64,000 nt of DNA from Sporopachydermia quercuum. Taxonomy: Eukaryota; Ascomycota; Sporopachydermiomycetes; Sporopachydermiales; Sporopachydermiaceae. A program made the translations under genes and the position numbers. This document shows positions 7,416-12,563 of this stretch, piece by piece; the first letter of the stretch is position 1, and each line of letters begins with the position of its first letter. The stretch is taken from contig BCGN01000001.1 in assembly GCA_001599295.1 (NCBI GenBank), forward strand, positions 1,178,001 to 1,242,000, written 5' to 3'. The notes beneath the pieces were generated by a model. That model saw nothing but the letters and a program-made list of their open reading frames with translations. It did not search any database and had not been told where the DNA came from.

Positions 7416-9248
7416 CTATCGAGAATGATAATTATCTGATTTCACGTAATTTACTCTTCTGTCAACTGCTTCTATACCATGTTTCTGTTGTAAATAGTTT
7501 CTTGCCTCTTGACTTCTAGTCCCGCGTTTCCTTGTCATTATTAGTATCTGTTTATCATCCTCAGCAGTCCAAATTCCTGGAATATTACTGAAAAGTTCAT
7601 CAATTCTTTTAACCAATGTACCATTATCCAATTCGGGATCAGTTTTTACTAGATCTGACTTCAGTATAGTACTCAAGCACATGTTGAAAGTATGATTATC
7701 ATCACCTAAAAGACTTTCAACAGCTTGTTCCACAAAATGTGGATGTACATCAAAAAGCTCAGATATTATTATTACATATTTTTGGACTTCTTGCTGATAT
7801 ACTGCCGTAGAGAGAAGGAAATCGGGTGCTTCTGGTAATTCAATATCACTTCCTGGCTGTTGACCAAATTGATGGTGATTTGGTGATTCTGACGCTGATA
7901 TAGTAGTTGTAGTTGTGGTAGTGGTAGTTGTTATAGTTCTATGACTATCATTGATATCAGTTTCGCTGTCCCGTCGTTGCTTGGGAAATATTTTGTTGAC
8001 AAATGTTGATAGCAGCCAACCAGCACGGGAAGGACTGGTTCCATCTTGTAAATTGTCTTGATGTGAACGGATTTGACGTTGTGGTGTTGTTTGAAAGAAA
8101 GAAGAGTCCAAATTACGGGATTCGTCTGATAAATGAATATGTGGCGTGTTTGATTGAGAAGTCGGTTCGTCAATTGACGATCTTTGTAAGGTTTCTAAAG
8201 CTCCTCTGTTTATTATTATCGATTCATGTTCTCCAGTTTCTTCCTGTTGCTCTAAAACTGTTGTTTTTTCTTCATTTTTACTTTCTTCTCTTGATTCTTC
8301 GTGGTTTCTGTTCTCCTTCTCGTGAAATTGACTCGTTCTTCTATGATCATCAGCAGATAATATACTATCTAATTTACCTTCTGCCTCAGCTTTGAGTAGT
8401 TTCCGGAGTTTAAATCGTACACCGTAGAAATTCCGCTCTTTGTTAAATTTATCCTTGATATCCTCAACTATTCTTCTACATATTTCTGCTTCCGATTGCT
8501 TTTGGGATTTACCTTGCCTATACTTTGAAATCATAAATCGTACTTCATCTTCCGAATACAACCTTTCGTCTACTTCTTCACCATTAGGATTTTCGTTTTC
8601 AGAATCCGAATTCGATTCCAAATCAATGTCTAAATCTTTCTCTTGGGAAAATTCTACTAATTCATCAACACTCAATGTTTTCTCCTTAAACTTCCGTAAT
8701 TGGTGTTCTTTGACTAACACCCTGACCTTAGCTCGAACTCCATAAAAAGTTCTGTTTGCGCTATCATCTAAATGACGCAGTATTCCACGTACAATTGAAG
8801 CTTCTGAGNGTTGTTTTCTATATCCTGTGGCAATCCTTTGAATCATCATCTTCTCTTCTTGTGGGGTATATACTACTCGTNTAAATTTAGTAGTTTCAAT
8901 TTTTGACCTTGTTTCAAAAGGAGCAAAATCCACCATTTTCTCTTTGGAAATACTCTCATAAACGTAATCAGTATTCAATACTGGCTTCTCAGGTATATTA
9001 TTGATTTCCTCGTTTTTAAACCTATCGACAAGAACAATATCTGCATCATTGATGTTATGTACTACTTTCCCTCCATTTTTTATTATCAAATCTTCTAGCA
9101 TAGAAGTAGCAAATTCCATGTCGTCAATACTCTGAATATAAAATATTAAGGGTACGTTAGAGCCATTTTTAGTGAAAATTGGAGCAATGATAGTGGTNGT
9201 TTCGCTGTTAGATTCATCATCAGTATTGTTTGATGATGCAGTAGTCAT
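7416..9248 (-). CDS. RAP1-like telomere/transcription protein, paralogue A (BRCT, two Myb, RCT)
   Basis: A 610-residue protein with RAP1 architecture. It has an N-terminal BRCT domain at about 32-108 (KNGGKVVHNINDADIVLV), then two Myb-type repeats at about 125-182 (VVYTPQEEKM ... FYGVRAKVRVLV) and 229-287 (RLYSEDEVRF ... FYGVRFKLRKLL). A long disordered linker includes a run of ten threonines. The C-terminal RCT domain at about 485-605 ends with the signature PGIWTAEDD and QKHGIEAVDRRVNYV, matching the end of fungal and human RAP1. RAP1 coats telomeric DNA or binds a TRF-like partner, and its RCT recruits silencing and length-control factors. The start ATG is at 9246-9248. Three codons contain N. 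Its neighbour at 10557-12563 is a paralogue on the same strand. Which of the two binds DNA is unknown. Confidence 0.8.
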   Translation of the reverse strand: MTTASSNNTDDESNSEXTTIIAPIFTKNGSNVPLIFYIQSIDDMEFATSMLEDLIIKNGGKVVHNINDADIVLVDRFKNEEINNIPEKPVLNTDYVYESISKEKMVDFAPFETRSKIETTKFXRVVYTPQEEKMMIQRIATGYRKQXSEASIVRGILRHLDDSANRTFYGVRAKVRVLVKEHQLRKFKEKTLSVDELVEFSQEKDLDIDLESNSDSENENPNGEEVDERLYSEDEVRFMISKYRQGKSQKQSEAEICRRIVEDIKDKFNKERNFYGVRFKLRKLLKAEAEGKLDSILSADDHRRTSQFHEKENRNHEESREESKNEEKTTVLEQQEETGEHESIIINRGALETLQRSSIDEPTSQSNTPHIHLSDESRNLDSSFFQTTPQRQIRSHQDNLQDGTSPSRAGWLLSTFVNKIFPKQRRDSETDINDSHRTITTTTTTTTTTISASESPNHHQFGQQPGSDIELPEAPDFLLSTAVYQQEVQKYVIIISELFDVHPHFVEQAVESLLGDDNHTFNMCLSTILKSDLVKTDPELDNGTLVKRIDELFSNIPGIWTAEDDKQILIMTRKRGTRSQEARNYLQQKHGIEAVDRRVNYVKSDNYHSR

Positions 9249-10556
9249 TGTGCCTGTGATTGCTGATAAGGTAAATCACAACAAGTAGATAGATGTATCT
9301 GATACTGTTGATAAGCAAGTGAAAGTGAAAGTAAGTCAAAAAGAGAAAAATAGTTTACTATTGAGGTTGGCCCTTAATGAAATACGAGTATTTAATTGTG
9401 TAGTTTGACCATAGCAGTTGAGTTCGCTACTGGATAGTAGTATGGTTTCGATAGTAAATAGGAGGAAAGGGAGGGGTGAAGGAGGTTTCGTTTACTCGGA
9501 ATTAAAGTTTGGATTCATGCGAGAGTTATGCAATGTGTATGCAGCTAAGTTATCTAATTGGTGGGTATTCAACATACATACGAAATGATAATAATAAGTT
9601 GATGGATGGTGAAAAAATATAATAAAATAAAATAAAAAATGGGTATTGAGAAGTATTGCAAGTTGACTATTCCTCAAATATCGAGCTGCAACTTAGTATT
9701 CATTGTATGTAATGAGCTAGCGCGATATAGCATATGTAGCTTTTCATAATAGTAAGGAATAAGAAGAGGTAGAGCAAAAGCAAATACTGTAAACTCAAAT
9801 TAAAGTGTATGTCAATCATTGATGGTGAGAAGGGATACTTGTCTCAGTAGGAATGATGGTTGAGAGTATTTCAGTTAAAGGTGTTAGAAGTAGATACTTA
9901 TTTTAAGCTTTCTTTCNTTGAATTTGGTAAGTAGATAGAGCTCGTTATTTGTCTTCCTCACATGTTTGACAACACGCATGGAATCATTGATGTTAAGGTT
10001 TGTTGTTGACAGGCTAAAACCTTATGAAATGGTTATCTTCATTGTACTTCTAAAGCTATTAGCTATAATGAACCAACTATAAGAAAGAAAAACAAAAGGC
10101 TGCTGTATGTCAAGCTATTTATCTTCTCATCAAATAATCTTTCTATCCTGAAAATTAAATCACTGAAGTCTTCCGTATAATAACTATAGAAACTTAACAA
10201 AGAAGTTGCTGGATTATAGTTCTAGCTTAGGTTTTGACCGTTAACTTTAAATTTATTTGAAACTTTAGCTCTACTGATTCATTTCATTTAAAATAATCTG
10301 ATAACATAGAAGTAGGCCGACTTGTCAATAGATAGAGCTGTCCTAGTCTACGTAAAATAAACAACTACACTTACCGTCATGTCTATATCTTCTCAAAAGT
10401 ACTCCTTGAAACATTGATCCGCAAATTTATCTACATTACATCTATACATTCATCTTGAAAATACCTTGTATCTAACTTTGAATTGCATCTTCACTATCTT
10501 CTAATCGTACATACAAATCAATAATAAATTTCACTACAATACACGCTTATCTAAAA
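9249..10556. other. Gene-free interval between the two RAP1-like genes, 1.3 kb
   Basis: This is the presumed promoter of paralogue A plus the 3' end of paralogue B. An A/T-only stretch near 9610-9640 is the main compositional feature. I see no third gene copy, tRNA or transposon remnant separating the paralogues. One N lies at 9917. Confidence 0.5.
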
Positions 10557-12563
10557 TCAAAAGCTCAGACAATTACTAGATTGAGCATAGGTTAACCGCA
10601 ATAAATAATTATCTTCGCCATGTTTGTCGATAAGGTTTTGAACAAGTTTCGACCTCTTCGTTGATGAGATTTTTGGGTTCAAAATTCTTTTCAGAGCAAA
10701 ATCATCTCCAGTGGTCCAAATGCCCGGGGTATCAGGGAAAAGATCGTCCAGTGATTGATCCTCTTCTTTCCCATAATCAGATGAAAACACCATTTCATAC
10801 TTTTCAATAAGCTTTTCAGTGTCATTATAATCTATGCCTATTAATGCTTCATATACTTCTCTTGCAGTCATTGCTTCTATTTCGTACCGATTACAGAGAT
10901 AATCAATATGATCAGCCAGAAGTTTTTCGTATTCATCAAATCCAAGATTGAGGTCAGGTCTAAGAGGAATTATATCATTTTTTGTCTCATCATGTTGTCC
11001 ATGATCCGGAATTGCTGATTCTGAATCAGAAGAAGTTGCTTCTATTCTATCAAGTGCTGGTGTCAGATGATCTCCATCACGCTCAATAGTACTTGTAGAT
11101 TTCTCTAGTATATTGAACATCTTCGAACCTTTGAACAGGCTTATCTGGGTATTTACTTCTGATCTTCTGATCTCTGTGGGCTGCTGAGCTGTATTTGATT
11201 TGTTCGCAGCAAGGGTTTGAATTTTCTCTAGTATAGAGGCTGATATACTGCTGCTAGCAAACTTTGACGGCGACTGTGATGCATCAGTTTCTTCTTCGAT
11301 TGGATCATTGGACTCATTCGGTTGTAGTTGTGGTATTAATGAATTCATATCCATCCGTTGACGTTTACTGTCAGGTTCATCGTTTGAGTTTTGTTGTGTA
11401 GAGTTGATGGTGTTTCCTGAGTCAGATAATTGTGATGAATGTTGCGATTGAAGAATAGCAGATTCTACTTGTGAGCTGATTTCGTTTGAATCGTTGCTTT
11501 GAGTAGCTATTTCCGAAATGCTTCCGGAAATGTTCTCCTGCTGCTGTATCTCAGGAATATCTTCAAGAATGTCTTCATTAGAATCTTGCTGTGTTTGTTC
11601 GATCATTGATGGTGTATCATCTGTTGTACTATGATCCAATTGCCGGGGTGGGGATGATGTTCTTTCTTGTGTTTGGTTTTCTCTATTTAGAGAGAGGTCC
11701 TCGTCAGGCTCATTATTTCGTCTGATGCCCATAGTTTCATTGTTATTCGAAGAGGCAGTAGTAGTAGCATTCACACTGAGAGATTCATCGATCTGAGGTC
11801 CATTATCAACTCTAGCAGATTCAGCATCTATTTGAGCCTTAGCCTTGCTCTCTCGACTTGAAGCCTTCTTTGGACTTGATACCTCTTCTTTAGGACTTGG
11901 TGTGTCATCATTTTCAGCGGGTTCATGCTCAATCAATGCTGCTTCCGGAGCAGGCATATAACTTCTTCTTATTTTAAGATCAGAAGGAAGTTTACTAGGA
12001 CGCCAATACTTAGGCGGGTGATCAACATATTCTCCTTTTTCAACCTTCTCCCAGTAAGGTTTCGCTTTCCCAATATCAAATCTTCTTTTATCGGCCAAAA
12101 TCCGTAATTTATAACGAACAGCATCAAATGACCGGCTTGATCCCATCTGTCTCACTATTTCAAACACTGTTTCACGTTCTGTTTTATTTTGCGCTCTATA
12201 TTCTCTGCAAATAGATTCCATCAAATCTTCTTCATCAGATGTGTAGTTGATTGGTCTCCCTGTTGATGTAGTANTTATACCTACCCGAAAATTAACCAAT
12301 GAAGGTAGCTTGTTGTCATGAACAGCTTTGTATAAAAATTCCAGTTTAAATATTTGACATCGTATATTAACAGGCATTGGAGCTCCTTCTTGATATAGAA
12401 CAATATCTGCATTTCTTGTTGACTGTACTATTTCACCCCCACCTTTAAGAATTAGCTTCTCTAATAGCTCTATTCTTGGTGAACGAGGAGGTAAAATTCT
12501 TATTTTCAGAGGTTCGTCATCTTTCGTGAAAAGGTCACTCGCTATTGTTTTTTGAGCTGCCAT
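10557..12563 (-). CDS. RAP1-like telomere/transcription protein, paralogue B (BRCT, one Myb, RCT)
   Basis: A 668-residue protein with the same domain order as its neighbour. A BRCT domain lies at about 15-92 (LKGGGEIVQSTRNADIVLY). A single Myb repeat lies at about 105-160 (INYTSDEEDLM ... SFDAVRYKLRILADKR). A roughly 380-residue Ser/Asn/Gln/Glu-rich linker follows. An RCT domain lies at about 545-660 and ends in DTPGIWTTGDDFAL and a DKHGEDNYLLRLTY segment. The single-Myb form resembles human and filamentous-fungal RAP1, which is tethered to telomeres through a TRF-type protein; that this holds here is inference. Spacing of BRCT, Myb and RCT signatures agrees with paralogue A, indicating duplication of a whole gene. 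The start is the first ATG of the open frame. One codon contains N. Confidence 0.8.
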   Translation of the reverse strand: MAAQKTIASDLFTKDDEPLKIRILPPRSPRIELLEKLILKGGGEIVQSTRNADIVLYQEGAPMPVNIRCQIFKLEFLYKAVHDNKLPSLVNFRVGIXTTSTGRPINYTSDEEDLMESICREYRAQNKTERETVFEIVRQMGSSRSFDAVRYKLRILADKRRFDIGKAKPYWEKVEKGEYVDHPPKYWRPSKLPSDLKIRRSYMPAPEAALIEHEPAENDDTPSPKEEVSSPKKASSRESKAKAQIDAESARVDNGPQIDESLSVNATTTASSNNNETMGIRRNNEPDEDLSLNRENQTQERTSSPPRQLDHSTTDDTPSMIEQTQQDSNEDILEDIPEIQQQENISGSISEIATQSNDSNEISSQVESAILQSQHSSQLSDSGNTINSTQQNSNDEPDSKRQRMDMNSLIPQLQPNESNDPIEEETDASQSPSKFASSSISASILEKIQTLAANKSNTAQQPTEIRRSEVNTQISLFKGSKMFNILEKSTSTIERDGDHLTPALDRIEATSSDSESAIPDHGQHDETKNDIIPLRPDLNLGFDEYEKLLADHIDYLCNRYEIEAMTAREVYEALIGIDYNDTEKLIEKYEMVFSSDYGKEEDQSLDDLFPDTPGIWTTGDDFALKRILNPKISSTKRSKLVQNLIDKHGEDNYLLRLTYAQSSNCLSF

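Follow-up and report, generated by a model that had tools for sequence, protein, structure and literature searches.

The closest described relatives of the system studied here are the duplicated RAP1 genes of methylotrophic yeasts. Malyavko et al. (2019; PMC6510891) reported eight methylotroph genomes with two Rap1 homologues, the two genes lying on different chromosomes in Hansenula polymorpha. In that study, H. polymorpha RAP1B binds the telomere repeats and RAP1A does not; RAP1A binds subtelomeres, and both proteins are present at ribosomal protein promoters. The accompanying survey found no B-like Rap1 in other Saccharomycotina. Here, we analyzed a 64-kb stretch of the Sporopachydermia quercuum genome (16.4 Mb, 12 contigs), corresponding to positions C1:1178001-1242000 and hereafter called the window, which contains two RAP1-like genes in tandem. 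We found that both genes are intact, that by sequence comparison they are sisters, and that a third, canonical RAP1 lies on another contig. The pair and its spacer are arranged as follows (coordinates without a contig name are window positions).

7416..9248, minus strand: left RAP1-like gene, 610 amino acids; open frame, Rap1_C and BRCT_2 above the Pfam cut-offs, coding codon usage
9249..10556: intergenic spacer between the copies, 1308 bases; no coding signal in the three minus-strand frames scored
10557..12563, minus strand: right RAP1-like gene, 668 amino acids; open frame, Rap1_C above the cut-off, coding codon usage

In agreement with the original prediction, which had been made from the sequence of the window, two open reading frames (ORFs) occupy these minus-strand positions without any internal stop, and both translations carry the PGIWT-x2-DD and KHG...R segments at their C-terminal ends. 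We computed codon usage scores of 0.215 and 0.266 bits per codon for the left and right copies, respectively, compared with 0.173-0.538 for 13 other ORFs in the window; because the same 13 ORFs supplied the codon table, their own scores are somewhat flattered. The spacer, unlike the two copies, scored below zero in all three frames.

A search of the whole genome with the Rap1_C profile identified three places, namely the two genes of the pair and C4:686850-687083, which belongs to the following gene.

C4:684936-687095: canonical RAP1, ORF of 719 residues

Its product exceeded the cut-offs of Myb_Rap1 (75.7 bits), Rap1-DNA-bind (51.3 bits), Rap1_C (45.2 bits) and BRCT_2 (33.4 bits), and it also matched a PDB chain named DNA-binding protein RAP1 (5.9e-22). 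Because this canonical RAP1 sits on contig C4, the pair in the window consists of extra RAP1-like genes, and the possibility that the pair is the genome's only RAP1, split in two, was ruled out. In BLASTP comparisons, the left and right copies aligned with each other at 57 and 47 bits, showing 28-30% identity in the two main aligned parts, whereas the best alignments with canonical RAP1 reached 32 bits for the left copy and 25 bits for the right. When local alignments were compared with those of shuffled sequences, the left-right z values were 13 for BRCT, 7-10 for the Myb-like repeats and 16 for the RAP1 C-terminal domain (RCT), compared with 5-6, -0.3 to 2.8 and 6-9, respectively, for either copy against canonical RAP1. 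By these alignments, the two copies are sisters relative to canonical RAP1 and each other's nearest kin among the three genes. The predicted strongly diverged duplication of RAP1 type therefore holds, in that the copies are nearer to each other than to canonical RAP1, and the left-right similarity speaks against an origin from unrelated families. The accompanying idea that a single-copy RAP1 had been split does not survive the presence of the canonical gene on another contig. The prediction further proposed that the copies divide telomere binding, silencing or promoter functions between them. Alleles or an assembly duplicate were ruled out by the low identity of the copies, with ambiguous bases within the locus being isolated single letters only. 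Across the 64-kb window, 65 isolated-looking N letters were counted, which are perhaps masked heterozygous sites of the assembly.

A phosphatase-like ORF adjoins canonical RAP1 on C4. We take this ORF to be PPN2, the gene that adjoins RAP1 in S. cerevisiae. On the basis of this presumed identity and the observed adjacency, the gene order around canonical RAP1 is suggested to be conserved with S. cerevisiae. The same presumed neighbourhood was not found at the pair, whose neighbours in the window include one ORF with an F-box-like match below the cut-off and one ORF that, from its sequence, we take to be ALG14-like.

A whole-genome search with the left protein also uncovered a further member of the family, a fragment about 440 kb from the pair.

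C1:744633-744761, minus strand: relic interrupted by four stops; 60% identity to residues 367-409 of the left protein

Its alignment score was 132, compared with 27.6 +/- 4.3 for 500 shuffles, none of which reached it, and it did not resemble the right copy (score 23) or canonical RAP1 (score 21). The surrounding 3.1 kb contains a single ORF of at least 60 amino acids. Because the fragment matches the linker of the left copy, it is a broken remnant of a left-type copy and younger than the left-right split.

Both copies keep the order BRCT-(Myb-like)-RCT in their sequences, with two Myb-like repeats in the left copy and one in the right. The terminal domains were located as follows.

8916..9176, minus strand: left BRCT, residues 25-111; Pfam BRCT_2 36.1 bits, cut-off 27.3
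7443..7610, minus strand: left RCT, residues 547-602; Pfam Rap1_C 37.3 bits
12279..12548, minus strand: right BRCT-like region, approximately residues 6-95; BRCT_2 16.3 bits, below the cut-off
10587..10742, minus strand: right RCT, residues 608-659; Pfam Rap1_C 25.4 bits, cut-off 24.2

Rap1_C thus exceeded its cut-off of 24.2 bits in both copies (28.5 bits when the right C-terminal tail was searched alone), and neither copy lacks an RCT. For BRCT, the outcome was divided. The left copy passed the BRCT_2 cut-off of 27.3 bits and remained below that of the BRCT model PF00533 (15.7 bits, cut-off 21.3), and the right copy has no significant BRCT by Pfam alone. The right region nevertheless resembles the left BRCT with a z value of 13, a score reached by 0 of 400 shuffles, and its assignment as BRCT-like follows from this clear similarity and not from Pfam. 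The best PDB match of the right BRCT-like region was the BRCT chain 7oz0 of RAP1 (TERF2-interacting protein 1), which was not significant (E = 0.58), and a phmmer comparison of the left RCT with the RCT of S. cerevisiae Rap1 was also not significant (E = 0.53). Of the full BRCT-Myb-RCT order predicted for both genes, the RCT was thus confirmed in both and the BRCT by Pfam in the left copy only.

The Myb-like repeats between these domains were as follows.

8703..8870, minus strand: left Myb-like repeat 1, approximately residues 127-182; signature match, z 19 against repeat 2, no Pfam Myb match
8385..8558, minus strand: left Myb-like repeat 2, approximately residues 231-288; signature match, 37% identical to repeat 1, no Pfam Myb match
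12084..12245, minus strand: right single Myb-like repeat, approximately residues 107-160; signature match, z values of 10 and 7 with left repeats 1 and 2 as partners

The repeats were compared by local alignments against 400 shuffles, and the signature combines the start of Myb helix 1 with a Rap1-like recognition helix. The left copy contained two matches, and the right copy and canonical RAP1 one each, compared with matches in 0.04-0.08% of 5000 shuffles (0.08% for either copy of the pair) and in 0 of 17 other ORFs in the window. The letters of the recognition helix are GVRAKVR and GVRFKLR in the left copy and AVRYKLR, present once, in the right copy; local alignment across right residues 171-534 found no second Myb-like repeat. 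A full Myb in both copies had been predicted, but no Pfam Myb model matched the middle of the left or the right copy with an E value of 10 or less, with the proviso that HMMER filters can drop weak matches. By contrast, Myb_Rap1, Rap1-DNA-bind and Myb_DNA-binding all exceeded their cut-offs in the canonical RAP1 of the same genome. Because Pfam thus recognised no Rap1-type Myb in them, we filed the pair as RAP1-like and not as canonical RAP1. A phmmer search of the left middle region against PDB gave no match. Myb_DNA-binding_7 scored weakly in the left C-terminal tail, at 13.9 bits against a cut-off of 27, which we took as a chance match because it overlaps the RCT. We also compared left repeat 1 and the right repeat with a Tay1-like ORF of this genome, and left repeat 1 with the C-terminus of a TBF1-like protein. 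The three z values (-0.7 to -0.2) gave no indication of the telobox-type Myb of Tay1/Tbf1 proteins.

Compared with the methylotroph RAP1A/RAP1B genes, the present system is similar in combining a canonical-type RAP1 with a divergent BRCT-Myb-RCT paralogue and in the strong divergence between copies; in the methylotrophs, different DNA-binding roles of the copies are known. The methylotroph system, however, consists of two genes, which in H. polymorpha occupy different chromosomes and which both have recognisable duplicated Mybs, whereas here there are three genes, the divergent two are in tandem, the Myb models are unmatched, one copy has a single repeat, and the host lies outside the methylotroph clade by a one-gene FAS1 tree. 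Saccharomyces RAP1 (PDB 3owt, 1ign) shares with the pair the BRCT-Myb-RCT order and the PGIWT/KHG C-terminal segments, and differs in that the window genes have no Myb_Rap1 and Rap1-DNA-bind matches. The Candida proteins Cdc13A and Cdc13B are comparable as duplicated telomere proteins answering to long, complex repeat units; they differ in being single-strand binders that form heterodimers. A search of open-licence papers by title and start of abstract found no tandem RAP1 pair among the matches listed. The arrangement had been proposed as undescribed; RAP1 duplication itself is already published (PMC6510891), and at most its tandem, three-gene form would be new.

To place the host, we constructed a FAS1 tree from 821 aligned residues of fatty acid synthase beta in five taxa, with chains 7bc4, 6u5v, 9d4a and 7q5s as references and 7q5s as the root. 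We take these chains to be from Komagataella, C. albicans, S. cerevisiae and a filamentous ascomycete, respectively. In this one-gene tree, the host was placed outside the three reference budding yeasts, which grouped with an ultrafast bootstrap value of 100, and a methylotroph host was ruled out on this basis. The identities of the host protein were 61.6, 61.1 and 58.4% to the three yeast chains and 59.8% to 7q5s. The gene contains 10 CTG codons, four of them in the aligned stretch; three of these four stand opposite leucine in all four references, which is consistent with CTG being read as leucine. The RPB1 scores of 2250 bits (5x4z), 2098 bits (7ui9) and 1992 bits (3h0g) did not contradict the tree placement; these chains are presumably from Komagataella, S. 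cerevisiae and S. pombe. An alcohol oxidase query gave no match, which is uninformative without a positive control. Tay1 has been reported as lost in late-branching Saccharomycotina (PMC7744550). From the FAS1 placement and the retention of a Tay1-like ORF, the host is probably an early-branching budding yeast, although the sequence evidence for this is limited.

We further examined the telomeres. An 11-nucleotide repeat, TTGGGAGGTAG, forms arrays of 2.8 to 9.1 copies at 9 of the 24 contig ends, and two contig starts begin with N. A two-unit TTGGGAGGTAG pattern matched 54 times in the genome, 53 times at contig ends and once internally. The sole internal copy (C5:239692-239713, plus strand) lies in a stretch without a long ORF and is a candidate telomerase RNA template; an Rfam search of this locus and of the window gave no match at the gathering score. 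Five rotations and one complement of TTGGGAGGTAG were searched in the literature, and none of the matches listed was about telomeres by its title. The repeat lacks both GGTGT, the half-site of canonical Rap1, and TTAGGG, the sequence of Tbf1/Tay1. Two Rap1 sites published for H. polymorpha, GGTGYAVGGRTGY (with its leading two letters already dropped) and GGTGYGAGGWGT, matched 4 and 3 times in the genome, compared with 1 and 1 for reversed controls; such numbers are too low for a decision in either direction and give no indication of a large regulon or of use at telomeres. Neither site occurred in a looser form in the approximately 6 kb beside the nine arrays, and none of the nine had TTAGGG in the adjoining 500 bases. 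Among ORFs longer than 90 amino acids beside the seven GGTGY-type sites, visual inspection revealed no gene for a cytosolic ribosomal protein, although such a screen would miss short exons.

The genome encodes other candidate telomere binders. A TBF1-like gene on C3 (L027:3472-6273) has a TRF domain of 198 bits and a C-terminal Myb of 18.5 bits, below the cut-off of 24.4, which is exceeded only when in-frame neighbours are counted. The Tay1-like ORF (C1, approximately 1118697-1120097, minus strand) has two Myb domains, which end in DLKDRFR and DLRDRFR, respectively, and which we take to resemble those of Tay1/Teb1; the start of the ORF may precede the fetched stretch. A Rif1_N search led nowhere, and absence is not established by it.

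The structure and kinship of the pair follow from the comparisons above, and from them we infer a function. Our tentative preference, which we rate slightly below an even chance, is for an ancient tandem duplication within a divergent lineage of RAP1 paralogues, with canonical RAP1 kept elsewhere, in which the left copy binds DNA, plausibly at telomeres, and the right copy is its partner. The two Myb-like repeats of the left copy, with their near-identical recognition helices, would bind two similar half-sites in duplex DNA, and the most plausible target would be the telomere repeat TTGGGAGGTAG. The right copy, with its one Myb, could act through contacts made by its BRCT or RCT, or it could combine that Myb with another protein. 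Promoters and subtelomeres would remain to canonical RAP1, as they do to RAP1A in H. polymorpha. By analogy, precedents argue for such a division, namely the RAP1B paralogue on the telomere repeats of H. polymorpha and the duplicated Cdc13A and Cdc13B, whose heterodimers read the long Candida repeats (PMC4416457).

Several results weigh against a telomere-binding left copy and its partner. The Myb-like signature was widened after the sequences had been seen, and because of this post hoc step it serves as support and not as proof. It also misses the second Myb of canonical RAP1, so that it could likewise overlook a possible second Myb of the right copy. The unmatched Pfam Myb models belong here as well. 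When each of the three Myb-like repeats was aligned with both Mybs of canonical Rap1, the six z values were 0.5, 0.4, 2.8, 2.6, 0.4 and -0.3; the values of 2.8 and 2.6 both involve left repeat 2 and were reached by 5 and 9 of 400 shuffles, and the register of its alignments with the canonical Mybs fails to line up the helices. A profile-profile comparison of the repeats with the canonical Mybs failed (probability 0.7 per cent). AlphaFold predicted helices at residues 109-124, 129-140 and 146-175 of the right copy, with block means of pLDDT of about 48-75, but the right model was weak overall (pLDDT 45.5) and that of the left N-terminus was unusable (pLDDT 38.6). Foldseek returned 36 matches for the right model, none of them significant (best E = 0.37; six were chains of homeodomain or SANT type, with E values of 3.8 to 9.3), and 10 for the left N-terminus model, all insignificant. 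At 3 of the 9 repeat-bearing ends, one GGTGT lies in the 500 bases next to the array, and either the TBF1-like or the Tay1-like protein could bind telomeres.

In a different assignment, the pair would act mainly in transcription or silencing, and telomere binding would fall to canonical Rap1, the Tay1-like protein or the Tbf1-like protein. The DNA-binding domain of canonical Rap1 is well conserved, S. cerevisiae Rap1 tolerates numerous changes in its site (PMC6510891), and alongside the TBF1-like gene there is a Tay1-like two-Myb ORF, Tay1 being a binder of Yarrowia telomeres (PMC6746865). We nevertheless consider this assignment somewhat unlikely, given that TTGGGAGGTAG contains neither GGTGT nor TTAGGG, that the few GGTGY-type matches in the genome have no looser counterparts beside the arrays, and that the binding of Tay1 and TRF-like proteins is tied to GGGTTA (PMC7744550).

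A further alternative concerns the origin of the pair. If the A/B split predates the methylotrophs and was lost or missed elsewhere, the pair would share an ancient duplication with methylotroph RAP1B. Both cases combine one canonical RAP1 with a divergent BRCT-(Myb)-RCT paralogue, and the H. polymorpha B copy is likewise the more divergent, with 16% identity to ScRap1 for HpRap1B and 20% for HpRap1A (PMC6510891). The failure of the published survey to find a B-like Rap1 beyond the methylotrophs, the position of the host outside the three reference yeasts, and the recognisable duplicated Mybs that HpRap1B retains (PMC6510891), in contrast to a pair unmatched by Myb models, make this descent unlikely. 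A quite improbable case, in our view, is that the left copy alone works as a DNA-binding protein, the right copy having lost DNA binding or surviving as a drifting relic. In the right copy we found one Myb-like repeat, a BRCT below and an RCT barely above their cut-offs, whereas a 2015 review ascribes duplicated Mybs to all Saccharomycotina Rap1 homologues (PMC4416457); the decayed left-type fragment on C1 shows that family copies get lost in this lineage. Against such decay stand the 668 open codons with coding codon usage, the conserved PGIWT-x2-DD and KHG motifs, and the RCT likeness to the left copy.

How cells change their telomere sequence while keeping a telomere-binding protein is a long-standing question. 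Here, a single genome holds several candidate binders (canonical RAP1, the RAP1-like tandem pair, and the TBF1-like and Tay1-like genes), together with a uniform repeat lacking the GGTGT or TTAGGG preferred by published binders and a candidate telomerase RNA template; each candidate is therefore testable on one defined 11-bp ligand. With the tandem duplication that we tentatively favour, RAP1 duplication would then not be limited to methylotrophic yeasts. A bolder form of this reading, which we regard as unlikely, is that the RAP1-derived pair, its Myb-like domains rebuilt for reading the 11-nt repeat, caps the chromosomes, with the two-repeat and one-repeat copies working jointly and possibly as a heterodimer; canonical Rap1, the Tay1-like protein and the Tbf1-like protein, although all retained in the genome, would have been displaced from the telomere. 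If true, this yeast would show, in fixed form, an intermediate stage at which one protein family passes telomere recognition on to another.

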